The notes beneath the pieces were generated by a model that made no database searches, was not told the DNA's origin, and worked only from the letters and a program-made list of their open reading frames with translations. The translations under genes and the position numbers were made by a program. A stretch of 64,000 bases of DNA from Nitrospina sp. (GTDB taxonomy: Bacteria > Nitrospinota > Nitrospinia > Nitrospinales > JACRGP01). Of this stretch, positions 23,906 through 47,330 are shown one piece after another. Position 1 is the stretch's first letter. Each line of letters begins with the position of its first letter. Location: positions 124,001 to 188,000 of the forward strand of contig JACAVV010000006.1 of NCBI GenBank assembly GCA_024648695.1, read 5' to 3'.

Positions 23906-26900
23906 ATGACTACAAATATTTCTTATTTAATTTTTCGCAAATTTCCTATATTTTTTGCGGTAATTTTTCTTAGTTTTATTTTCGTAGATTTTTCTTTATC
24001 AGAACCCATTGATGCCGACATGGTTTTAAGGAGCGAAAGTACCGAAAGCCTGTTTGGATACTCGGTGGCATCTGCGGGCGATTATAATGGGGATGAAATC
24101 AACGATTTGATTGTAGGTGCCTATAACGATTCCGGCAGTGGGATCAATGCAGGAAAGGCGTTTGTTTTTCTGGGCCGGAATTCAGACGAGGCCCTCACAT
24201 TAAACCCGGAAACCGACGCCGATATCATATTCAATGGCGAAAGCAACAGTTTTTTCGGATTCTCAGTGTCGAGCGCAGGCGATTTCAATGGTGATGGGTT
24301 TGACGATGTCATTGTCGGAGCTCCCTTTGCAGACCGCAACAGCGAGACCAATTCCGGAGCGGCTTATATATTTTTTGGTGGACCCGGGTTTACGATTGGA
24401 AGTCAAACCGAACTGAATGCATCCAGCGATGCCAATGTCATACTCGAAGGCCAAAGTGCCGGGGATCAGTTCGGATTTTCGGTAGCTTCTGCTGGTGATT
24501 TTCAGGGTGATGAGGATGATATTCAGGATGTCATCGTCGGTGCCCCGGAAGATGATAATAATGATCAGGTAGACTCTGGTAGCGTATTTGTTTTTTTCGG
24601 TCAGGATCCCGACTCCCAAATCCTCCTGAGAGCGGATGCTTCTGCCGATATTCGCATTGATGGCCAGGGAAGTAGTGGTAACGATTTCGTGAGGTTCGAC
24701 GATGAATTTGGCTGGTCGGTTGCTTCGGCAGGTGATTTCAACAATGATGACATCAATGACGTCATCATAGGAGCTCCCGGCGACGACAATTCCGGAGATG
24801 AAGGCAGCAATGTGTTCGACGACTCAGGTGCCGCCTTTATTTTTTTTGGAGGAATCCCTGCAGGAAATTATAAAGCGGATGACGATGCAAATGTGATCAT
24901 CAATAGCACCGATTTTCAGGACAATTTAGGATTCTCCGTAGCGGGGGTGGGTGACTTCAATGGAGACGGATTTGACGACGCCATTGTGGGTGCCCCTTTT
25001 GATGATAACAATAACGAGAATATGTCTGGAAGTGCTTTTATCTTTTTTGGAAGCAATATCGTTTCGCAGACAACTTATACCGCAGACACGGATGCAAATA
25101 TTATTCTGAATGGGCAGAGTGAAGGGGACCGGTTAGGCTGGTCGGTTGCTTCTGCAGGGGATTTTAATGGCGATGGACTGAACGATGCGATCGTTGGGGC
25201 TCCCAAGGATGACAATAATAGTGAGATTGGTTCGGGGTCGGCTTTTATCTTCTTTGGGGAAAACCCCGGAATGCAAATCAGCTTGCGTGCCGATTCGGAT
25301 GCAGATTTAATTCTTGATGGAGTAAACGGAAATGGAACCCCAACTGAACAGGGTGATGAGTTTGGCATTTCTGTTTTTTCTGCCGGTGACTTTTTTGGTT
25401 CGGGAACTCCAACGGTGATCATAGGTTCCTGGCTAGCGGATTCAAATGATCTTGATAATAATGCCGGGACTGCCTACCTGCTTCAGGGATTGAATGTGGC
25501 GTTCAACCAGTCGACCTCTGATACCTTGGAATCTGCAGGATCCCATACGGTCAATGTTTCCCTAAGCATACCTAATCCCTTTCCATCCAATATTACCGTC
25601 GATTTTTCAGTCAATGGTTCCGGAACCACTGCCATAGGCGGAGGCACCGATTATTTGTTGAATGCAGGAACTTTAACTTTTCCACAAGGAGTGCAAACTC
25701 AGGGAATCACCTTCCCGATAAACAATGACAACCTGGACAGTGATGACGCCAACGAAAGCGAATTGGAAACGATTGAAATTATTTTATCGAATCCTGTCAA
25801 CGCCGGCCTGGGAATTATTGATTCCCACAATTATACCATTATAGATAATGACGGCGACGACACTACAGCGATGGGAAACATCAGTGCCACCTCCCCCACG
25901 GTATACATGAATACAACCAGTTCCAGTGGTTTTGAATTTGTTACCTCTGTAAATGTCGAAGTGAAATTATCAAACGCGGTTTCCAATCAGGTGGGAGTGG
26001 AATTTGAAATTGCTGGTGGAACTGCAATCGAAGGCACCGATTATAATCTCGTTACCACATCTCCATTAGTATTTAATCCCGGCCAGACTTCGCAAAATAT
26101 CACATTGCAAATTATCAATGAATCGATTTTGGAAAATGATGAAACCATTGAGATCGATTTATCGGAAAGCCCGGTCAATGCCTCCACCGGAATCAGAAGT
26201 TCACACGTGTATACCATTTTAGCGGGGGACAATAGTTTTGTACCTTCTATTGGATTCGATATCACTAACGACTCCATTACGGAATCTGACAGCAATCCTC
26301 AAATAGCGGTTTCCCTTTCCAGCGAAACTGGAAAAAAAGTAACTGTGGAATATCATTTGGTAAATCAAAGTCAGGGAGGAAACAGTTTTTCAATAAACAC
26401 AGGAATGCTCACCTTCGAACCGGGAACCACCAGTCAGAATATTTCGGCCACCGTAGTCGATGACGATAAATTTGAAGGTGAAGAATCGGTGTTATTGAGT
26501 TTGTACCATCCGAAAAATGCTACTTTAGGCGAATCCTCTCATGTTTTCAGTATTACCGATAACGATACGGCTCCAACCGTCGCTTTCGATTCTTCCGAAT
26601 CCGAGGGAGATGAAGGCGACACTACCATTGAATTGGCCGTTTCTCTTTCCGCTGAATCCGGACTAACGGCTACCGTTGATTATGATGTGACTGGGGGAAC
26701 GGCTGAAGGGAGTGGGGCCGACTTTACTCTGGAGTCGGGAACTCTGACTTTCGAACCCGACACCATCACACAAAACATATCTTTAACCATAAATGATGAC
26801 GGCTTGAATGAGGCCATGGAAACCCTGGTGGTCACCTTAAGTAATCCGGATAATGCCACGCTGGGAACCAATACATCCCATACCTTTTCCATTACCGATA

Positions 26901-28084
26901 ATGACTCCGCTCCTACAGTTGAGTTTGACTCCACAAGTTCTCAAGGTGATGAGACGGTGAGCGCCATGGATATTCCCGTATCTCTTTCTGAGGTTTCCGG
27001 ACAAACGGCTACAGTGGATTTTGAGGTTAGCGGAGGAACGGCAGTAGCCAATGGAGAAGATTTCACACTCGATTCAGGAACCTTAACTTTTGAAGCAGGA
27101 AACACCACTAAAAATATTTCTGTCACAATTGCAAGCGATCTGATTGATGAACCGAATGAAACCATAGAAATCACCTTATCCAATCCTTCCAATATCGATT
27201 TGGGCACCAACACGATCCATATCTATACGATAAACGATGATGATGACGCGCCCAAAGTGGCATTCGACTCTTCCGCTTCGGAAGAAATGGAAACGGTAAC
27301 CCCAGCAAAAATTCCGGTTTCATTAACTGGTCCTTCCGGATTTACCGTTTCGGTGGATTATGAAATAACCGGAGGAACGGCTTCTCCAGGCCTGGATTTT
27401 GTATTAAATTCCGGAACACTTTCCTTCGATCCTGGGACACAAACTCAGGAAATTTCAGTAATCCTGAGGGATGACGATTTTACCGATCTTGATGAAACCC
27501 TGATTCTCACCCTCAGCAATCCGTCCAATTCTATAATAGACACCAACAACACGCATACCCTCACCATCATTGACAATGACCTGCAAGTTCCCGTCAAGAT
27601 ACTGGAGGTTGTTTCACCCTACTGGCAATTGGATTCCGCTTCCTATACATTTATAGGAATTTCACACCCTTCCCTATCAAGAATGAGTTCCCGAATCGGT
27701 GTCCGGGTAAAAGTACGGTTAAAATCCGGAGAGTTATTACAGCAACCTTTAGAGTTCACAATCCGTTCTAACCAAACTCAAAGATTATTTATTGTACAAA
27801 GCAACCACCCCTTCCTTAATCCGGTTACACTTCCAAACGCCTTGTTCCTACTTGGTGATTCTACCGCAAGTAAAAGTGGAAATTTAAAATTCCAATCCCT
27901 CGCCTCCAATCCCGATCAACCCCTGAATGGAACTTTGATTTCAGGTCATGCCGACATTTCCATGCTCAATTTTTGGGGAGCGGTCGTGGTTCAAGCCACG
28001 TCCACCGGTTTCGCTATGGAGTTTGTTGGAGATAACAAAGATTCACGTGCCTTCAATACTCTAAATTTTAGTGGCATCAATTAA
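23906..28084 (+). CDS. Giant exported FG-GAP / Calx-beta protein
   Basis: 1392 residues. Signal peptide about 1-32. Residues about 35-530 hold seven FG-GAP (integrin-alpha-like) repeats, six with a calcium-loop GDFNGDG-DD.IVGAP pattern (for example AGDFNGDGFDDVIVGAP); the seventh is degenerate (GDFFGSGTPTVIIG). They should fold as a seven-bladed propeller. Residues about 535-1225 hold six Calx-beta domains, recognisable by V.Y.VTGGTA...DFTL.SGTLTF.PG...Q.I and ETL..TLSNP. The last ~160 residues are a domain shared with the neighbouring giant protein, ending GFAMEFVGDN...FSGIN. Likely a calcium-stabilised cell-surface or secreted adhesin. Start ATG 23906 lacks a strong Shine-Dalgarno. Confidence 0.9.
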   Translation: MTTNISYLIFRKFPIFFAVIFLSFIFVDFSLSEPIDADMVLRSESTESLFGYSVASAGDYNGDEINDLIVGAYNDSGSGINAGKAFVFLGRNSDEALTLNPETDADIIFNGESNSFFGFSVSSAGDFNGDGFDDVIVGAPFADRNSETNSGAAYIFFGGPGFTIGSQTELNASSDANVILEGQSAGDQFGFSVASAGDFQGDEDDIQDVIVGAPEDDNNDQVDSGSVFVFFGQDPDSQILLRADASADIRIDGQGSSGNDFVRFDDEFGWSVASAGDFNNDDINDVIIGAPGDDNSGDEGSNVFDDSGAAFIFFGGIPAGNYKADDDANVIINSTDFQDNLGFSVAGVGDFNGDGFDDAIVGAPFDDNNNENMSGSAFIFFGSNIVSQTTYTADTDANIILNGQSEGDRLGWSVASAGDFNGDGLNDAIVGAPKDDNNSEIGSGSAFIFFGENPGMQISLRADSDADLILDGVNGNGTPTEQGDEFGISVFSAGDFFGSGTPTVIIGSWLADSNDLDNNAGTAYLLQGLNVAFNQSTSDTLESAGSHTVNVSLSIPNPFPSNITVDFSVNGSGTTAIGGGTDYLLNAGTLTFPQGVQTQGITFPINNDNLDSDDANESELETIEIILSNPVNAGLGIIDSHNYTIIDNDGDDTTAMGNISATSPTVYMNTTSSSGFEFVTSVNVEVKLSNAVSNQVGVEFEIAGGTAIEGTDYNLVTTSPLVFNPGQTSQNITLQIINESILENDETIEIDLSESPVNASTGIRSSHVYTILAGDNSFVPSIGFDITNDSITESDSNPQIAVSLSSETGKKVTVEYHLVNQSQGGNSFSINTGMLTFEPGTTSQNISATVVDDDKFEGEESVLLSLYHPKNATLGESSHVFSITDNDTAPTVAFDSSESEGDEGDTTIELAVSLSAESGLTATVDYDVTGGTAEGSGADFTLESGTLTFEPDTITQNISLTINDDGLNEAMETLVVTLSNPDNATLGTNTSHTFSITDNDSAPTVEFDSTSSQGDETVSAMDIPVSLSEVSGQTATVDFEVSGGTAVANGEDFTLDSGTLTFEAGNTTKNISVTIASDLIDEPNETIEITLSNPSNIDLGTNTIHIYTINDDDDAPKVAFDSSASEEMETVTPAKIPVSLTGPSGFTVSVDYEITGGTASPGLDFVLNSGTLSFDPGTQTQEISVILRDDDFTDLDETLILTLSNPSNSIIDTNNTHTLTIIDNDLQVPVKILEVVSPYWQLDSASYTFIGISHPSLSRMSSRIGVRVKVRLKSGELLQQPLEFTIRSNQTQRLFIVQSNHPFLNPVTLPNALFLLGDSTASKSGNLKFQSLASNPDQPLNGTLISGHADISMLNFWGAVVVQATSTGFAMEFVGDNKDSRAFNTLNFSGIN

Positions 28085-28108
28085 TAGTTTTCTGGATTCC
28101 AAATAGGT

Positions 28109-28130
28109 TAGAATGGTGTTCTATTTTTTT
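28109..28130 (+). terminator. Intrinsic terminator after the FG-GAP gene
   Basis: TAGAA-TGGTG-TTCTA hairpin followed directly by seven T residues. Short AT-rich stem, but the uninterrupted T-tract and position 25 bases after the stop support it. Confidence 0.5.
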
Positions 28131-28176
28131 GGGTATTAGACCCATAACCCTTCCATGATTTTGTGAGGGAATCTAA

Positions 28177-31100
28177 ATGGTAAAAATGACTACATTTACA
28201 GCAAAGCTGTTTTTTCCTTTATTTGCACTTATATTTTTCATTCCTTCCCTTTGGGCCTCTCCTGTTCAAAATAAAAGTTTATCTGAAAAATTTTCATTGG
28301 AGTCAAATGGGACTACTTTAAAGTTGCTTCAAAAGGTTGAAGCTCTGAACCTATCTCTCCATCAATTGTCCCTGGATGGCTTTTCCAAAGTGGAAATTCA
28401 TCAACCGTCTCCCACTTCTAAATTTATTTTGAATGCAAATGGTTCAAGTATAAATACAATTGACGCTTTTTGGTCCAATGGCCAATTGGAAATCCGTTCC
28501 CCGGATTCTCTGACCCTTGGTGAGAAAATTAACATCACGGCTCCTTCACTTTTTATTTCTGCAGAAAATATCAACATGGGTGGAGAACTAATTTCAGAAG
28601 GAGGAACCATAGCAATCCACTCAATGGACTCGCTGATTATTAAAGGTAACATCGATGTTTCCGAAGACAAAGCTGGCCTCATTGAATTAGAAGGGCGTGT
28701 TGTGTATGTGTTGGGAAGCCTTGATGCGAATGGAAAATCGCAAGCTGGAAAAATCCTGATAAAGGCCGAAAATATTCTTCAAGCAGGCAACATATCTGCT
28801 GATTCTGAAAATGGCCCTGCTGGAGAAATCGACCTCGAATTCGATCATCGATATATCGACCAGGAAAATAGTAGTGTCACGGCTTCCTCCAATTCCGGAG
28901 AATCAGGAGGGAGCATTCGACTATTAGGCGGACCCAGGGCTCGCCTTTTTTCATCGGGTCAGCACAAGGTAACCGGAAATTCCGAACCAGGCCACGGAGG
29001 AGAAATCCAGTTTTTGGGACAAGACTTGTTTTTAGAAGGTGCCCGGTTGGATGCTTCCGGCTTTGCTGGGGGTGGAATAATCCGCGTGGGTGGCGATTAT
29101 CAAGGATCCGGTTCTCTTCCACAAGCGCGAAGCACCAGGATTTCAGCCGCTTCTGTATTGATGGCTGATGCCAGGGAATATGGATCCGGAGGGGATGTGG
29201 TTATTTGGTCAAAAAATCAAACGCAATTTTTTGGTCAAGTAAGCGCCGAAAGCCCAAATAAAAATGGCTTCGTAGAAATTTCCAGTAAGGACAAACTGAA
29301 CTCGGTCGGGGCGGTTTCTTCGGGAACCCTGCTTTTGGATCCAAAAGATGTCAACGTTGATGATAGCGCCACCACATTTCCTCAAATTACAATCACGGAC
29401 CCCAATCCCAATGGAAGTAATTTTGGAGAATATATTGTTCCTCTTACCAATGGCAACTATGTGATTACCGACTCGGGCGATAACCTCAACGGCACCAAAA
29501 GCGGAGCGGCTTATCTTTTCAATGGCAAGTCAGGAGCTCTGATCGCCACTTTGACGGGGTCCGCAATGGATCACGAGGTGGGTTCAAGTGGTATTACCGC
29601 TTTAACCAATGGCAACTATGTCGTTGAAAGTCCACTTTGGGATAATGGGGGAACTGCAGATGTAGGGGCCGTGACCTGGGGTAATGGCTCTACTGGAATC
29701 AGCGGTGTCGTCAGTACCGACAACAGTCTTCATGGAACCACAGCCGGCGATGAGGTTAGCAGTGAATCTCCTACCGCTTTACCCAACGGCAATTATGTTG
29801 TAACCAGTCCGGAATGGGATAATGGGGGAACTGCCAATGCAGGAGCCGTGACTTGGGCAAATGGCGATAAAGGCCTTACAGGTCCTGTGACCACTGCCAA
29901 TAGTTTATATGGAACTACTGCAAGTGACAGTGTCGGGGATAGTGGTATCGTTGTTTTGAGCAATGGGAATTATGTCGTTCCAATCTCTAAATGGGACAAT
30001 GGGGCAATGATGGATGCGGGAGCCGCAACCTGGGGGGATGCCAGCATGGCTATTATGGGCGCCGTAGACTCTTCCAATAGTTTAGTTGGAACCTCTGCTG
30101 ATGATAAAGTCGGGAGTGGCATCACAGCTCTAACAAACGGCAATTATGTCCTCCGAACTCCCAATTGGGACGATGGGGGAACGGCAAATGTCGGGGCCGT
30201 GACCTGGGGTGACGGCTCCTCAGGCACGAAAGGCCTCGTCAGTAAATTCAACAGTCTGTATGGTTCCACTATGGAGGACCGAATCGGTGATGCTGGGGTA
30301 ATTGCCTTGACCAATGGGAACTATGTGGTTGCCAGCAACGATTGGGATAATGGTGGAACCGTTGATGCCGGAGCTGTTACCTGGGGAGATGGTTCCATGG
30401 GTACCGTGGGCGAGGTAACCACTGCAAACAGTCTTTACGGCACCACAGCCGATGATAATGTAGGCCTCAACCATTTAGCTTTGACCAATGGGAATTACGT
30501 TATTATGAGTCGTCTCTGGGACAATGGTGGGACGGCAAATGTCGGTGCCGTGACCTGGGGAAATGGTTCCATGGGTACCGTGGGCGAGGTAACCACTTCA
30601 AACAGTCTTCACGGAGTCACAGCAGGCGACTCCGTTAGTTTCTCAGCCGGCACGACCGTTGCGGCATTGACTAATGGAAACTATGTTGTGGGAAGCGGTT
30701 TATGGGATAACAACGGGACAGCGGATATCGGAGCGGTTACCTGGTGTGATGGGTCCACTGGAACTACAACGGGACCCGTCACCACATCTAACAGCCTTTA
30801 TGGAACCACGGCAAGCGATAGAATCAGTTCAGGCGATATTACCGCTTTGAATAACGGCAATTATGTGGTGGCGAGCCATCAATGGGATAACAGCGGCACG
30901 GTTGATGCCGGAGCGGTTACCTGGGGAAATGGCACCATGGGAATTACAGGGCCGGTCAGCGTTTCAAACAGTCTGTATGGTACCACCGCCAGTGACCAGG
31001 TGGGAGAAACAGGGATTACAGCATTGGCAAATGGGAATTACGTTGTCATAAGCAAATTATGGGATAACGGCGGCACAGCTGACGTAGGCGCCGCCACATG

Positions 31101-33879
31101 GGGAAACGGAACAACGGGGATCACCGGACCTGTGAGTACTTCCAACAGCCTGCACGGTTCTACGGCCAGCGATGAGGTGGGTGGAACCAATGTTCAGGAA
31201 TTAGACAATGGCTCATATGTGGTGGTAAGTCGTAATTGGGACAACGGGGGCAATGCCGATGCCGGAGCAGTCACCCTTGCCGATGGAAATAAAGGAATAA
31301 CAGGCCCCGTGACTAATCTCAACAGCGTTATTGGACAAGCCGCCTCCACAGTTGTGACAAATAATGTTGATAATGACCCAACAAATAATACCTTTGCAGT
31401 AGGATTTTTGGATGAAGGAACCGGCACCGTCCGGCTTGCATGCGACACCCTGGATTCACTCTCTTTTGGGTGTTTGGCTAATGATTCGGCAACCATCACT
31501 TCTCAGTTTCTCACCGATGTTTTAAATACCGGAACCGCGGTCAGCCTTCAGGCCAACAATGACTTGACCGTGACAAGCGCCATTACGGCAAATAACCCTG
31601 GCGGTGATGGAGGCGCGCTCACGCTTCAAGCCGGACGAAGTGTTTTTATCAATAATAATATCACTACGGACAATGGCGCCCTCACCATTATAGGTAACGA
31701 TCTGCTCGCCAATGGAGTTGAAGACGGCGCTCGGGATGCCGGTAATGCGGTCATCACAATGAATGGAGGAACCAATCTTGATTCCGGTACCGGCCCTATC
31801 ACGATTGAGTTGCGAACTGGAAGTGATAAGACCAATACCGGATGCGGCGATGTGAGCCTCGAGTCGGTGAGCGGAGGTGTTCTCACTGTGGATGTGCAAT
31901 GCAACACGTCCACTCTGATGATTAATAATGCAATCAATGCAAGTTCGGTAACCCTGGATGCCGATAACGATATCAGTTTTTCCGCAAACGGAGACATCAC
32001 CTCTACCGGGACCCTTATGGTGCGAGCCGATTCAGATTCCAATTCCGATGCAGGCTCCGGAGGAGCGCTCACCATGGTGGATGGCTCGGTTCTGGATGCA
32101 GGTGCATCTTCTATCACTTTGAGCGCGGACGAGAACATCACTTTAGCCAAAGTGATGACGACAGGTTCTTCCAATTCTGCGGTGACCCTCACTTCCGTCA
32201 GCGATTCTATTGTAGACGCGGGAACCACGGCTGAAAATGTCACCGCCACCAACGGAGGAATTGTCGTCACTACGGGCATGGACCTTGGTGAGTCGAGCAA
32301 CTTTATCGAAGGCACTGTCAATACACTCGATTTAAGTGGCGTTGCGGGGTCTGACTTTTTCAACAATGCCGGAACCACTGTTGGATTCGATAGCACTTTC
32401 AGCAATGGCGAAGAATCAACCACCAATGTGAACCTCGGTGTTTCCCTAAACCAAATTAATGGCACCACTACGGTGGCCTACGCGGTTACTGGAGGGACGG
32501 CTTCAGGAAGCGGAACGGATTTTACTTTGGCTAACGGCACCCTCACCTTCACGCCCGGAGACAATACAGAAAATATTGCCTTAAGTGTCGTGGATGATTT
32601 TATTGAGGAAGGCGATGAAACAATCATAGTAACTTTATTGAATCCATCCAACGCCAATTTGGGGTCGAACACAACACATATCTATACTATCAACGCAAAC
32701 GATACTCAGCCAACGGTGGCTTTTGATTCTTCCAGTATCGCTGTTGCGGAATCTGCTGGTACGGTAAATATACCCGTCTCCCTTACAAATAACTTTGGTC
32801 TCGCAATCACAATCGATTATACCGTTAGCGGTGGAACAGCCACTGGCGGAGGTGTCGATTACACATTGGCATCTGGAACCCTCACGTTTAATCCAGGCGA
32901 CACCACTCAAAATATTTCGGTAAGTATCGTGGGAGACAGCTTTGTTGAGCTGGATGAAACGGTCACTCTCACCCTGTCGAATCCCGTGAACACCTCCCTG
33001 GGAGGGATTTCAACTCACACTTTGTCGATACAGGACGACGATACCGTCCCTACCCTGGGATTTGATACCACCTCTTCGGAAGCATTCGAATCATCGACCA
33101 ATCCAAGCATTGGATTATCCCTATCCAATATATTTAGTTCAGACATCACCGTGGATTATGGGGTCACCGGGGGAACAGCCACAGGGGAAGGAACCGACTA
33201 CACGTTAGCGAATGGCAACTTGACCTTCACTGCGGGTACCCTCATACAAACTATTTCCCCTACGGTAATAGACGACACTTTGCAGGAAAATAATGAAACC
33301 ATAATCATCACACTCAGTAACCCTGTCGGTGGAGTTTTGGGAAACAATTCATCCCATACATACTTTATAAACGATGACGATTTTAGCTTGCCCGAAGCCA
33401 AACGGGAATCCCAGGTAGTTTCTCCCTATTGGCAGATCGATAGCGCGACTTACACGTTTATTGGAGTGTCTCACCCATCTTTGGAGCAAATGAATTCCAA
33501 TATTGGAGTCCGGGCTTTGGCTATGACCAATGAGGGATTACCTTTGGTTCAACCTTTGGAATTTACCATTGAATCCAGCCAGACCCAGAGGATATTCATC
33601 ATTCAAAGCAATCACCCGTTCCTGAGTCCAACAACAGTACCGGACGGATTATTTTTAGTCGGCAATCCCGATTCCATCAAGCACGGACAATTGCAGTTCA
33701 CACCCCTGGCAACCAATCCTGAAAATATGTTTGACAATGGATATCCCGACATCACCATGTTGCATTATTGGGGCGCTGTGGTTGTTCAGGCAACATCCAC
33801 CGGCTTCGCTATGGAATTCGTTGGCGATAATCAGGACTCCAGAGCTCTCCATACCCCCTACTTCAGCGGAGTGAATTGA
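28177..33879 (+). CDS. Giant exported FHA-like / DUF5650-repeat / Calx-beta protein
   Basis: 1900 residues, ATG 28177 with GAGGG seven bases upstream. Signal peptide about 1-28. Residues about 90-385 are a filamentous-haemagglutinin-like beta-helix (ISAENINMGGELISEGGTIA; SGGDVVIWSKNQTQFFGQVS), typical of large exoproteins. Residues about 420-1055 hold one atypical and ten typical ~58-residue repeats of the form LTNGNYVV.S..WDNGGTA-GAVTWGNG..G..G.V...NSL.G (DUF5650 type). A second haemagglutinin-like segment follows (about 1120-1390), then three Calx-beta domains (about 1395-1740) and the C-terminal domain shared with the 1392-aa protein. No TpsB-type transporter gene is nearby, so the export route is open. 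Confidence 0.9.
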   Translation: MVKMTTFTAKLFFPLFALIFFIPSLWASPVQNKSLSEKFSLESNGTTLKLLQKVEALNLSLHQLSLDGFSKVEIHQPSPTSKFILNANGSSINTIDAFWSNGQLEIRSPDSLTLGEKINITAPSLFISAENINMGGELISEGGTIAIHSMDSLIIKGNIDVSEDKAGLIELEGRVVYVLGSLDANGKSQAGKILIKAENILQAGNISADSENGPAGEIDLEFDHRYIDQENSSVTASSNSGESGGSIRLLGGPRARLFSSGQHKVTGNSEPGHGGEIQFLGQDLFLEGARLDASGFAGGGIIRVGGDYQGSGSLPQARSTRISAASVLMADAREYGSGGDVVIWSKNQTQFFGQVSAESPNKNGFVEISSKDKLNSVGAVSSGTLLLDPKDVNVDDSATTFPQITITDPNPNGSNFGEYIVPLTNGNYVITDSGDNLNGTKSGAAYLFNGKSGALIATLTGSAMDHEVGSSGITALTNGNYVVESPLWDNGGTADVGAVTWGNGSTGISGVVSTDNSLHGTTAGDEVSSESPTALPNGNYVVTSPEWDNGGTANAGAVTWANGDKGLTGPVTTANSLYGTTASDSVGDSGIVVLSNGNYVVPISKWDNGAMMDAGAATWGDASMAIMGAVDSSNSLVGTSADDKVGSGITALTNGNYVLRTPNWDDGGTANVGAVTWGDGSSGTKGLVSKFNSLYGSTMEDRIGDAGVIALTNGNYVVASNDWDNGGTVDAGAVTWGDGSMGTVGEVTTANSLYGTTADDNVGLNHLALTNGNYVIMSRLWDNGGTANVGAVTWGNGSMGTVGEVTTSNSLHGVTAGDSVSFSAGTTVAALTNGNYVVGSGLWDNNGTADIGAVTWCDGSTGTTTGPVTTSNSLYGTTASDRISSGDITALNNGNYVVASHQWDNSGTVDAGAVTWGNGTMGITGPVSVSNSLYGTTASDQVGETGITALANGNYVVISKLWDNGGTADVGAATWGNGTTGITGPVSTSNSLHGSTASDEVGGTNVQELDNGSYVVVSRNWDNGGNADAGAVTLADGNKGITGPVTNLNSVIGQAASTVVTNNVDNDPTNNTFAVGFLDEGTGTVRLACDTLDSLSFGCLANDSATITSQFLTDVLNTGTAVSLQANNDLTVTSAITANNPGGDGGALTLQAGRSVFINNNITTDNGALTIIGNDLLANGVEDGARDAGNAVITMNGGTNLDSGTGPITIELRTGSDKTNTGCGDVSLESVSGGVLTVDVQCNTSTLMINNAINASSVTLDADNDISFSANGDITSTGTLMVRADSDSNSDAGSGGALTMVDGSVLDAGASSITLSADENITLAKVMTTGSSNSAVTLTSVSDSIVDAGTTAENVTATNGGIVVTTGMDLGESSNFIEGTVNTLDLSGVAGSDFFNNAGTTVGFDSTFSNGEESTTNVNLGVSLNQINGTTTVAYAVTGGTASGSGTDFTLANGTLTFTPGDNTENIALSVVDDFIEEGDETIIVTLLNPSNANLGSNTTHIYTINANDTQPTVAFDSSSIAVAESAGTVNIPVSLTNNFGLAITIDYTVSGGTATGGGVDYTLASGTLTFNPGDTTQNISVSIVGDSFVELDETVTLTLSNPVNTSLGGISTHTLSIQDDDTVPTLGFDTTSSEAFESSTNPSIGLSLSNIFSSDITVDYGVTGGTATGEGTDYTLANGNLTFTAGTLIQTISPTVIDDTLQENNETIIITLSNPVGGVLGNNSSHTYFINDDDFSLPEAKRESQVVSPYWQIDSATYTFIGVSHPSLEQMNSNIGVRALAMTNEGLPLVQPLEFTIESSQTQRIFIIQSNHPFLSPTTVPDGLFLVGNPDSIKHGQLQFTPLATNPENMFDNGYPDITMLHYWGAVVVQATSTGFAMEFVGDNQDSRALHTPYFSGVN
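29440..31335 (+). repeat. Array of about eleven DUF5650-type coding repeats, ~174-bp period
   Basis: Each unit begins with an NGNYV-type segment and contains WDNGG, GAVTWG and NSL-G. Protein period about 58 residues, DNA period about 174 bases. A 33-base stretch is identical at 30391-30423 and 30565-30597, exactly 174 bases apart, so at least one unit was duplicated recently. The first unit (around 29440) is atypical. Confidence 0.85.
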
Positions 33880-33912: not shown

Positions 33913-33951
33913 TTAGAGAATTATTAATTCTATTTGGAACGGTCTTATTAC

Positions 33952-34890
33952 ATGGAATACAATAGCAAAACGGTCACTGTAGAAGGAGTGACGCTGGTAC
34001 TCAATCAACCTGACGATTCGGAACCGCAATGGATCGGGCAGGATGAAATACTGAGGCAGATTCTAGCATGCTGGCTGGTGGTATCTGAAAAGGATTTTCC
34101 ACTGTCTCCCCGCATTGTGGGGATGCCGGGCATCGGCAAGACCACATTGGGAATGGTCGCGGCGAAATCGCGCAAACAACCTTTGTATATTTTTCAATGC
34201 ACCAGCGACACGCGTCCGGAGGATTTACTAATCACTCCGGTGTTAGCGGAATCCGGCAAGATTTCGTATCACGCCTCTCCTCTCGTGACAGCCATGCTAC
34301 AAGGCGGCATTTGTATTCTGGATGAAGGCAACCGCATGAATGAAAAGAGCTGGGCTTCGCTCGCGCCTTTGCTGGATCACCGGCGTTATGTGGAATCCAT
34401 CATTGCCGGAATCAAGATTCAGGCTCATCCAGAGTTTCGTTGTTGCGTGACGATGAATAATGACGAATCGACCTTTGAAATTCCGGATTACATTCTTTCC
34501 AGACTGCAACCTACCCTTTCCTTGTCCATGCCTTCGTTCAAGGACGAAATGGCTATTCTCAAATATCACCTTCCCTTTGCGGATGCGGAATTACTTAACA
34601 TGACGGTTGAGTTTTTGCAGAGGTCGCATCAACTGGACCTCGATTATTCGCCTCGTGACGGAATTCATATTTTGCAATACGCGCTCAAGCGCATGAGTCA
34701 GGATTTGGAACATCCTCTCTCCAAAGATTCAGTTTGGCGGGAGTCTATCGAGAAAGTCCTGGGCGAAGAGGCTCTCGATCTGGACAGTCTGGCGGAAAGA
34801 AAGCGCCGTGCTCTTGGAAGCGAGAGCCTTCCAATGGGTCTGGGCGATTTCTTTTTCAACGAGGACAGCCCCTTGCATCCTGATTCCTGA
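33952..34890 (+). CDS. MoxR-type AAA+ ATPase
   Basis: 312 residues from ATG 33952 (TTG 33934 in frame as alternative). Walker A GMPGIGKT (57-64), Walker [11 protein letters not shown] with D124-E125, sensor-1 segment VTMNND (166-171), and a downstream ILSRLQP arginine region. The call is to the MoxR/dynein-like AAA clade, ATPases that usually act as chaperones for a partner protein encoded next door. Twenty bases separate its stop from the next gene, so they form an operon. No von Willebrand-A gene, the usual MoxR partner, is present. Confidence 0.88.
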
Positions 34891-34909
34891 TTTCTATTCC
34901 GACAAATCA

Positions 34910-36733
34910 ATGACCGATATTTTTAAACTCAGCGACCGAGTCCGCTTACTACCCGTAGTGTACGGTAGCGGCAATTTCAGTCAGGCCATTCGCAAACAAT
35001 TGCTAGGATCGCAATGCGATTGCCTGGCCGTATGCTTGCCGCCGGAGTTCCAATCAACCGTGGAGGCTGGAATTGAAAAACTGCCATACATTACCCTGAG
35101 TTGCCTGCCAGAAAAAGAGGACGTGTTTTCATACGTTCCCATCGATCCTTGTCAGCCCACCATCATGGGCTTAAGGATAGCGATGCAGGAGGGAATCCCA
35201 AGAGCCTTTGTGGACCGAAGTGTTGCGGAATACCAAGTACGGCGTTTCGATTTTCCGGACACCTTTGCTTTACGCAAACTCTCTATGGAAACGTTTTGTG
35301 CAGGCTTTCTTCCGGCGATCCCCAAACCTGAACGAGATGACCAGGCGGATTTACGTGCGAAATGGATTGCCTATCGGCTACACAGTCTGGAGGTGGATCA
35401 TTCCCGGATTGTTTGCATTTGTTCGATCCTCGATTGGCCCTGGATCAAGCGCGCATTCGATGAACGGGAAGCCTATAGCAAACCCGAAGCTCTAGATTCC
35501 ACTCCCCGCCTTTGGGGCCTGGAGCCGAACACGCTGTTTTTTGCGCTGTCCGAATTTCCTTACATCACATATTTATATGAAAAGAACCGGGAAGAGTTGC
35601 GGTCGGACAAAGACCTTTCAGTGGACGGGGTTAAAGAAATAATTTTGAAAGCCCGTGACCTGTTTCTCGAAAAGCGCAAAGGGCGGTACCATAATTTAAA
35701 TGCTTCAACTTTACAAATTTACTTGCAATACCTCCGCAACCTGTCGCTGATGGAAAATCGACTCACACCCGATTTATACACTTTAGGTTCCACCGCCAGA
35801 CAGATTGGTGGCGATGTTTTTTCTCTAGCTGTAATTGAAGCCGCCCGGGAATACCCGTTTCAGAGCCAGTATCCGGAAATGGAAACCATGAGTTTGGGGA
35901 TTGAAAAGGCCAGCATTGACGACGAGCATGTGGTGACCATGAAAAACCGTCTTTCCGAAACGGCTTATGAATGGCGTAACCTGAATTTGAAGGTGGAGCC
36001 GGATCCTGAAAAACAGGACCAATGGCGCTATACCTGGAATCCTTACGGACAGTGCTCCTGGCCCCCGGAGGATGACCGAATTGAAAGTTTTCATACCCAT
36101 GTGAGGGAGCAATCGAAACTCTTGCTTTCCTCGGATTTGGCGCGCAGTGAAAAATTTACTTCCTCGGTTAAAGACGGGATCGACATGCGTGAGACATTGA
36201 GAAACTGGCACACTGGGGACATTTATGTTCAGGAAATTCCACCATCAAAAGGCAAAGTCGAGATCGTGGTCTTTCTGTTCGAAATGGAACCCGATCCCAA
36301 GAAGTATTCATGGTGCCAAACCTGGTTTGCCGAGCACCAGGAAGAATCGACCCTTTGTTTTTTCGCAACCAGTTTTGGGGATAAGCTGATAGGTCCCGGC
36401 ATCGCACAAGCCACTTACGGAGGCTGTATGATGATCTTTCCTCCACGTCCCATACCCAATATTTGGGAGGATCCAAGGTTGTATCACAGTTCTACTTTGG
36501 AAGAAAAACTGCTGGAAGGGGCATTTTTTCATTCCCGGGAACGTCACGTGACGGTGGTCTCTCCAAATCTCCCACCTGTAGCATGGAAACAGTTGGCCCG
36601 TTTTTACAAAAAACGGATAATCCACATTCCATTAAAACGCTTTTCTCATCAAACCATCGAAAAAATTCGATGTTTTCATGTTTTAAACGGAAAAGAAATA
36701 CGCTCGTTCGCAAGCCGCTTTATTGGGGAATGA
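34910..36733 (+). CDS. MoxR-associated protein, possible EreA/TraB-like (DUF5682-type)
   Basis: 607 residues, ATG 34910 twenty bases after the ATPase. I do not recognise it with certainty. The N-terminal third has the layout of EreA/ChaN/TraB-like proteins used as the third component of MoxR ternary systems: CDCLAVCLPPEFQSTVEAGI, then YVPIDPCQPTIMGLRIAMQE ending GIPRAFVDRS, and RLHSLEVDHSRIVCICSILD. The middle (about 285-350) is helical. The C-terminal ~200 residues (VEIVVFLFEMEPDP; STLCFFATSFGDKLIGPGIA) are a mixed alpha/beta region without DxSxS, so it is not a plain VWA domain. No signal peptide or transmembrane helix. Confidence 0.55.
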   Translation: MTDIFKLSDRVRLLPVVYGSGNFSQAIRKQLLGSQCDCLAVCLPPEFQSTVEAGIEKLPYITLSCLPEKEDVFSYVPIDPCQPTIMGLRIAMQEGIPRAFVDRSVAEYQVRRFDFPDTFALRKLSMETFCAGFLPAIPKPERDDQADLRAKWIAYRLHSLEVDHSRIVCICSILDWPWIKRAFDEREAYSKPEALDSTPRLWGLEPNTLFFALSEFPYITYLYEKNREELRSDKDLSVDGVKEIILKARDLFLEKRKGRYHNLNASTLQIYLQYLRNLSLMENRLTPDLYTLGSTARQIGGDVFSLAVIEAAREYPFQSQYPEMETMSLGIEKASIDDEHVVTMKNRLSETAYEWRNLNLKVEPDPEKQDQWRYTWNPYGQCSWPPEDDRIESFHTHVREQSKLLLSSDLARSEKFTSSVKDGIDMRETLRNWHTGDIYVQEIPPSKGKVEIVVFLFEMEPDPKKYSWCQTWFAEHQEESTLCFFATSFGDKLIGPGIAQATYGGCMMIFPPRPIPNIWEDPRLYHSSTLEEKLLEGAFFHSRERHVTVVSPNLPPVAWKQLARFYKKRIIHIPLKRFSHQTIEKIRCFHVLNGKEIRSFASRFIGE

Positions 36734-45963: not shown

Positions 45964-47330
45964 GTGTTTGCTGGCGAAACCTTATTTACTGTAACCAGTG
46001 TTGAAATTGACCTAAACCCTGAAACCAGCGAAGAGAACGATTCATTAATTACCGGTTCCGGGACCGAAATTGGTACAGGTGAGGGCTTGGTCGAATACTT
46101 ATGGAAGGTGAATCAACCCGACGGAACTGAAATTACCAGCAAGATACTTTCCACCAACATGTTCAAGGGCACTTCTTCTATCTCTGAATACACCAGCTTC
46201 CCTACGGCGTCACCCGGTGACTATTCGGCACATATAGAGATTATCAGCCCAATAACTTCCCCGGTTGTACTATCCAACAAGGAAAACTACAAAGTGGTTG
46301 CCGATGAAACCCCTGAAATTGCCTGGGTATCCACTACATCTCAGTCGGATGAAAACGAAGAAATTATTGCCGTTGATTTGAGCTTAACGCATGAATCCCG
46401 CAAAGCCGTTTCTGTGAAGTATAGAGTAACGGGAACTGCCAATGGAAATGGCGAAGATTACAAATTAAAAGATGACACGGTTACTTTTCCCCCAGGAAAA
46501 ACCAATAAGCAGATTTCTCTTAACATAGTGGATGACATTCTGATTGAGCCGGACGAAACAGTCATTCTGACCCTGTTCAAACCGGTAAATGCCACTTTGG
46601 GAGAAAACATCGTTTATACGCATACCATTTTAAATGACGATCTACCGCAAATTCAGTTTGTATCGGATTCCTCGTCGGTTAAGGAAACTGAAACCAACTG
46701 GTCTATACCGGTGTCCCTTTCACCGGCATCGATTGAGGAGGTGTCAGTTGATTATTCTGTAACCGGTGGGACCGCCACGGCAGACGAGGATTTTGAGCTT
46801 ACAAACGGAACCTTGACCCTGGCCGCTAATGAAACCTCTGCCTCCATTGATGTATCAATTTTCCTGGACGACCTGATCGAGGATAACGAAACGGTGGTGA
46901 TTGAGCTTGCCGATCCCATAAACGCAAGCCGTGGCCTCTCATCGCATACCCTGACTATCCAAAATGACGATACCGACGGACAATTATGGGTCAATTTTGG
47001 AGCGTTGAAATCCAAAGGGGAACAGTGTTTATCGTGACCAGCAATAATACAACGATCAATCCGACCACCCTCCCTAATGCCTTGTTCATGATCGGTTCAG
47101 AAACGATCTCGGGGCACGGATCGTTAAGAATTACCCCTTTATCCACTTCTCCAAATGAATTATCCGGTCTTCCTTCTTCTCCTGATCGCGGATATCCAGA
47201 CATCACACAATTAAATTACTGGGGAGCTGTGGTAGTCCAGGGCACAGCGACCGGATTCGCAATGGAATTCATCGGCGACGGGCACGATTCCACAGCGTTC
47301 ACCACACCAAATTTTAGCGGCTTGAATTAG
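45964..47330 (+). pseudogene. Decayed Calx-beta exoprotein, third copy of the shared C-terminal domain
   Basis: A first frame (45964-47037) starts at a weak GTG without signal peptide; the open frame begins only after a TAA at 45928, so the export signal and 5' part are missing. It contains a beta-rich N-terminal part and two Calx-beta domains (SVKYRVTGTANGNGEDYKLK; VDYSVTGGTATADEDFELTN). It stops in the out-of-frame tail GALKSKGEQCLS. The correct frame resumes at about 46986-47330 with the last ~110 residues of the domain shared with the two giant proteins (YWGAVVVQGTATGFAMEF ... FSGLN). About 70-75 residues of that domain are deleted at the junction. One out-of-frame deletion would explain both defects. 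Confidence 0.75.

Follow-up and report, generated by a model that had tools for sequence, protein, structure and literature searches.

Why do two giant, neighbouring genes of a Nitrospina sp., a marine nitrite-oxidising bacterium, end in the same domain, and what does this domain do for the proteins that carry it? The window, that is, the whole stretch of DNA that was analysed, comprises 64,000 nt (GCA_024648695.1, contig JACAVV010000006.1:124,001-188,000, forward strand), and both genes, here termed clients, are present in it as the initial annotation had it, judging by their open reading frames and Pfam. The first (23906..28084, + strand, 1392 aa) encodes, from the N- to the C-terminus, a signal peptide (about 23906-24001, +), FG-GAP repeats, Calx-beta domains and the C-terminal domain (27608..28081, +; profile match with iE 2.6e-63), with the terminus SGIN-COOH at 28070-28081 (+). 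The second (28177..33879, +, 1900 aa) encodes a signal peptide (about 28177-28260, +), DUF5650 repeats, Calx-beta domains and the same C-terminal domain (33415..33876, +; iE 6.9e-64), with the terminus SGVN-COOH at 33865-33876 (+). An FHA/haemagglutinin module, also proposed for the second client, was not detected in it by Pfam; the FG-GAP and DUF5650 assignments hold. Both reading frames end exactly with the domain, which measures 154 residues plus a four-residue tail and is 64% identical between them, confirming the common C-terminus that had been proposed. Directly downstream of the second client, on the same strand (33934-36733), lie a gene for a MoxR-like AAA ATPase and a large gene with no function assigned.

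The third, decayed copy noted before is real and has the same kind of ending (SGLN), with the qualification that the first third of the domain (VVSPYWQ...SHPSL) is missing and only the last two-thirds, profile positions 58-157, remain (47019..47327, +). Its Calx-beta part (45964..47037, +) runs into a stop. Because the domain is partial and lies in a different frame from the Calx-beta part, which is without a signal peptide, this third client is a pseudogene.

The sharing of the domain is not due to chance, since the same genome (4.2 Mb, 97% complete) contains 48 matches to it, nearly all with E-values from 1e-104 to 1e-23. After merging, these correspond to about 45 loci: 41 encode multi-domain proteins, 2 are stand-alone copies and the few others are fragments. 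The genes involved amount to 4.3% of the assembly (60.8 thousand codons). A hydrophobic N-terminal signal was visible upon plain inspection of the sequences in 39 of the 43 non-fragment genes, and three of the other four start near contig ends; no copy was seen in a cytoplasmic protein. The cargo is very diverse and all of extracellular type. Namely, the modules found by Pfam ahead of the domain include FG-GAP, Calx-beta, DUF5650, NHL, HYR, BACON-like and He_PIG, as well as an M12B reprolysin-like protease, an S8 subtilase, glucose/sorbosone dehydrogenase and DUF7948 with an SBBP propeller. The earlier impression that the domain always follows Calx-beta domains is thus not borne out, as proteases and NHL, glucose/sorbosone dehydrogenase and SBBP proteins also bear it. 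The largest client reaches 5370 aa (L045:452-16555, G000:C5) and stands in tandem with one of 2519 aa; elsewhere, five clients follow each other in a row (C45, 149992-179828).

Strict terminal placement, which had also been claimed, holds for 40 of the 41 multi-domain proteins of this genome, one of the 40 (C31) having a damaged end. The exception is an RHS protein with inverted order (L056:2552-6979, G000:C34), in which the signal peptide is followed by the domain, Calx-beta and RHS repeats and which lacks the G-x-N tail; it is the only inverted copy seen. What is more, dozens of copies stand alone.

Of 77 Nitrospinota genomes, 40 have the domain. When 84,980 species were scanned with two degenerate peptide patterns, which distant copies could escape, 71 loci came back, whose titles point to Nitrospinota. 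The few matches that carry labels of other phyla (L136, L137 and L113) are contigs of 3.5-5 kb with Nitrospinota-type copies, placed in gamma- and alphaproteobacterial bins (Gammaproteobacteria, Alphaproteobacteria), and two of them (L136 and L137) group in the tree with clients of the Nitrospinaceae MAG OFTM44; all three are probably misbinned. As far as searched, the domain is specific to Nitrospinota. Carriage by viruses, phages or plasmids was rejected, there being no relatives of the domain in the viral, phage and plasmid collections.

The feature is, in other words, real, and it is also unnamed, as had been suspected: there is no Pfam or NCBIfam match, and searches of Pfam, NCBIfam and PDB sequences gave nothing above noise. 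An AlphaFold model of the window domain, built from 101 sequences, is an all-beta sandwich with a pLDDT of 90.5 for the copy of the second client, and bears a weak resemblance to ASRT and CBM folds. No match in the structural search reaches an E-value of 0.001. For both models, that of the window domain and that of a stand-alone copy (the B protein introduced below), chains of GH50 agarase and Thermotoga TM1070 are near the top. The latter (1nc7; ASRT/ASRAH beta-sandwich, PF07100) is the nearest small single-domain fold to both, with weak scores (Foldseek probability 0.9, TMt 0.51 and 0.62, E 0.06-0.2). The ASRT superfamily has an eight-stranded beta-sandwich fold and is defined by a conserved Asn at the end of strand 2 (PMC2739507), whereas our domain has a near-invariant His20/Ser22 at that place, the His standing in for the defining Asn. 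For this reason, membership of ASRT/ASRAH is not claimed; there is no Pfam match either. A sugar-binding role is possible.

The initial annotation wrongly held that no motif of the kind known from C-terminal export signals such as T9SS or PEP-CTERM was present, having overlooked the conserved terminal tetrapeptide SG[VIL]N-COOH. In particular, the last strand, GFAMEF[IV]GD..DS, is followed by a linker that varies in both length and sequence, after which comes a conserved end; this reads SG[VIL]N in clients, as it does in many of the stand-alone A proteins, and RG[IV]N in the B proteins. A terminal G-[VIL]-N is found in 65 of 77 clients, 28 of 50 A and 31 of 32 B proteins, and in none of 1064 control reading frames of 200 aa or more. 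Other A proteins end in GPAAP-like sequences (15) or in GVNLQ (4), and in some lineages A and clients alike terminate in GPAAP or GVNLQ rather than GxN; the deepest copy (L149) is without the tail motif. For both the window domain and the B protein, AlphaFold predicts an ordered body and a disordered tail. That a flexible end with a free carboxyl group is conserved would be accounted for most readily if another molecule recognised it.

The stand-alone copies consist of the domain alone behind a signal peptide, forming proteins of approximately 200 aa that usually occur in tandem, A and then B, as at 7766-9041 of L057 in the genome studied here. Among 41 genomes compared, a long client never occurs without such a copy. 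At one type of locus, pair 1, families across the phylum share the arrangement A-B-TPR lipoprotein, in some cases reduced to A-TPR lipoprotein (L057, L090, L091, L094, L095, L098, L138, L140, L144, L146, L148 and L149), mostly with the TPR lipoprotein, rodZ-like, pilT-like and pilC genes back to back. Many Nitrospinaceae have a second A-B pair. Its neighbours are an aldo-keto reductase gene and the gene of a RIC-like protein, and in many cases an M12B metalloprotease client lies next to it (e.g. L099, L105, L108, L118 and L119). A client of our genome that is related to these M12B clients comes closest, among named models, to the biofilm metzincin Mep72.

An orthologue of the TPR lipoprotein gives one strong match per positive genome, and its distribution over 77 genomes follows that of the domain: 32 have both, 34 neither, 8 the domain only and 3 the lipoprotein only (Fisher p about 8e-11, in a test that ignores phylogeny). 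In one of the lipoprotein-only genomes (G046), the gene lies at the very edge of a contig. Two genomes, G026 and G032 (completeness class 94% and 92%), carry pair 2 together with a client and are without the orthologue; the TPR lipoprotein therefore cannot be the receptor everywhere. The small A-B-TPR-lipoprotein operon is the likely core of the candidate system.

In the tree, clients and stand-alone copies are intermingled, with 11 label changes, at least six of them forced by well-supported branches, the bootstrap not being fully settled, and clients are on average closer to A than to B. On these grounds, A-type domains were joined to exoproteins, or released from them, on several occasions. 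Tight lineage-by-lineage co-evolution of A and clients is not claimed. Namely, identities support it in f1 and most of f2, and both tree and identities indicate that clients do not track their own lineage's A in f3 and genus g7.

What, then, does the domain do? The suggestion of a sorting, export or surface module rather than a catalytic one stands insofar as there is no sign of catalysis and the signals are of Sec type ahead of very diverse N-termini; which of the three functions applies has to be weighed. Our best explanation, which we hold tentatively and rate somewhat short of an even chance, is that this beta-sandwich has no catalytic role and serves to anchor Sec-exported proteins to the surface of the cell or to its extracellular coat. 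Clients and A/B would leave the cytoplasm by Sec, as their signal peptides indicate, and would then reach the outside, most simply through a type II system. Our genome has GspD above the NCBIfam cut-off, and also PilQ, and type II secretion would be the simplest route for Sec-exported clients. Once outside, the domain, the flexible linker and the free G-[VIL]-N end would be recognised by a partner that also handles A and B, as homology, tail conservation and co-occurrence suggest; the partner could be A and B themselves, acting as a scaffold, or the TPR lipoprotein, acting as a receptor. The N-terminal enzyme, propeller or adhesin would thereby be held at the surface. This reading is favoured by the number of copies and the variety of their cargo, the secreted stand-alone proteins, the recurrent gene order and co-occurrence with the TPR lipoprotein, the conserved tail, and the mixing of clients with A in the tree. 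Counting against it are G026 and G032, the lineages with ends other than GxN, the tailless L149, and the clients that do not track A in f3 and g7. A more elaborate version, which we consider unlikely, is that secreted A and B form or cap a surface scaffold, that the TPR lipoprotein reads the G-[VIL]-N end, and that an A-type domain plus tail serves to display giant adhesins and enzymes by the dozen, amounting to a dedicated, undescribed Nitrospinota system of sorting and surface assembly.

The strongest alternative, one we regard as unlikely, is a secretion signal akin to the C-terminal domains (CTDs) of type IX secretion (T9SS), in which a dedicated outer-membrane translocon would read the domain and G-[VIL]-N, export the client and possibly cut the domain off, with A and B being auxiliary parts or free signal domains. 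The nearly invariable C-terminal position in multi-domain copies, the conserved free carboxy end and the unrelated cargo all agree with it, and the T9SS CTDs of Bacteroidota (type A/B) are likewise C-terminal beta-sandwiches on many unrelated Sec-exported proteins per genome (PMC4804311). However, A and B consist of a signal peptide and the domain alone, and no translocon candidate accompanies the domain, its neighbours being the TPR lipoprotein and pil genes. The Nitrospinota domain also differs from those CTDs in its length of about 154 aa plus tail, in its stand-alone copies and in its phylum. No T9SS CTD profile was matched up to E 1 (33 members against NCBIfam), and membership of that family was rejected, the defining profile match being lacking; the translocon SprA/Sov (TIGR04189) gave no match in our genome, and none in the control genomes either. 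Since one copy is N-terminal and others stand alone, a structural or binding module fits better than a signal that works at the C-terminus only.

Sorting of exoproteins by their C-termini also recalls the PEP-CTERM/exosortase system, and our genome has homologues of an exosortase (C21:7169-7948) and of the PEP-CTERM-associated ATPase, the latter directly beside an MshL-like secretin (L160, G000:C4:49600-50100). PEP-CTERM proteins are marked by a short terminal PEP motif, a transmembrane helix and a basic end. The Nitrospinota domain, by contrast, is folded, with a polar tail, and membership was rejected, as the C-termini inspected have neither a PEP motif nor a terminal transmembrane helix and end in G-[VIL]-N. 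As for two-partner secretion, the genome has one TpsB, whose neighbouring TpsA does not carry the domain. This TpsB is found at L065:452-7743 (G000:C33) with a TpsA-like protein of 1848 aa, the C-terminal part of which resembles TPR plus a CHAT-type protease. Immediately upstream of the pair there is a fossil copy of the domain.

Binding to carbohydrate rather than to a protein partner is rated about as unlikely as the export signal. According to this reading, the domain would bind exoproteins to particles or to the polysaccharide that coats the cell itself, with A and B acting as small lectins. Two independent models rank agarase chains and TM1070 near the top, the ASRT family has been argued to bind sugars (PMC2739507), and the cargo includes adhesin-like and hydrolytic proteins. 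That said, the Foldseek matches have E-values of 0.01-0.2 and TM scores of 0.4-0.6 only, the ASRT-defining Asn is absent, and the conserved free G-[VIL]-N end and the TPR lipoprotein would be left unexplained. Finally, it is very improbable that A and B are accessory parts of a type IV pilus or its secretin, with clients displayed on pili or via that machinery: pair-1 loci do adjoin pilus-type genes across families, and the TPR lipoprotein does match PilW/Tgl and PrsT models, but all of these scores are below the curated cut-offs and the lipoprotein forms an orthologous group of its own that goes with the domain, A-B occurs without these pil genes in L144 and at all pair-2 loci, and the A/B signals are of the ordinary Sec rather than the prepilin type.

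Surface attachment remains our preferred reading of the domain. In the literature on surface or exoproteins of Nitrospinota we found nothing on this domain family, no localisation data and no description of how the cells furnish their surface. Among marine nitrite oxidisers, the most abundant ones known belong to this phylum (PMC10839748). A phylum-specific module carried by proteases, propellers and giant adhesins is a candidate, compact and open to testing, for a new system that sorts or attaches proteins by their C-termini. Annotators could, moreover, use the domain to spot surface proteins that are now called hypothetical.
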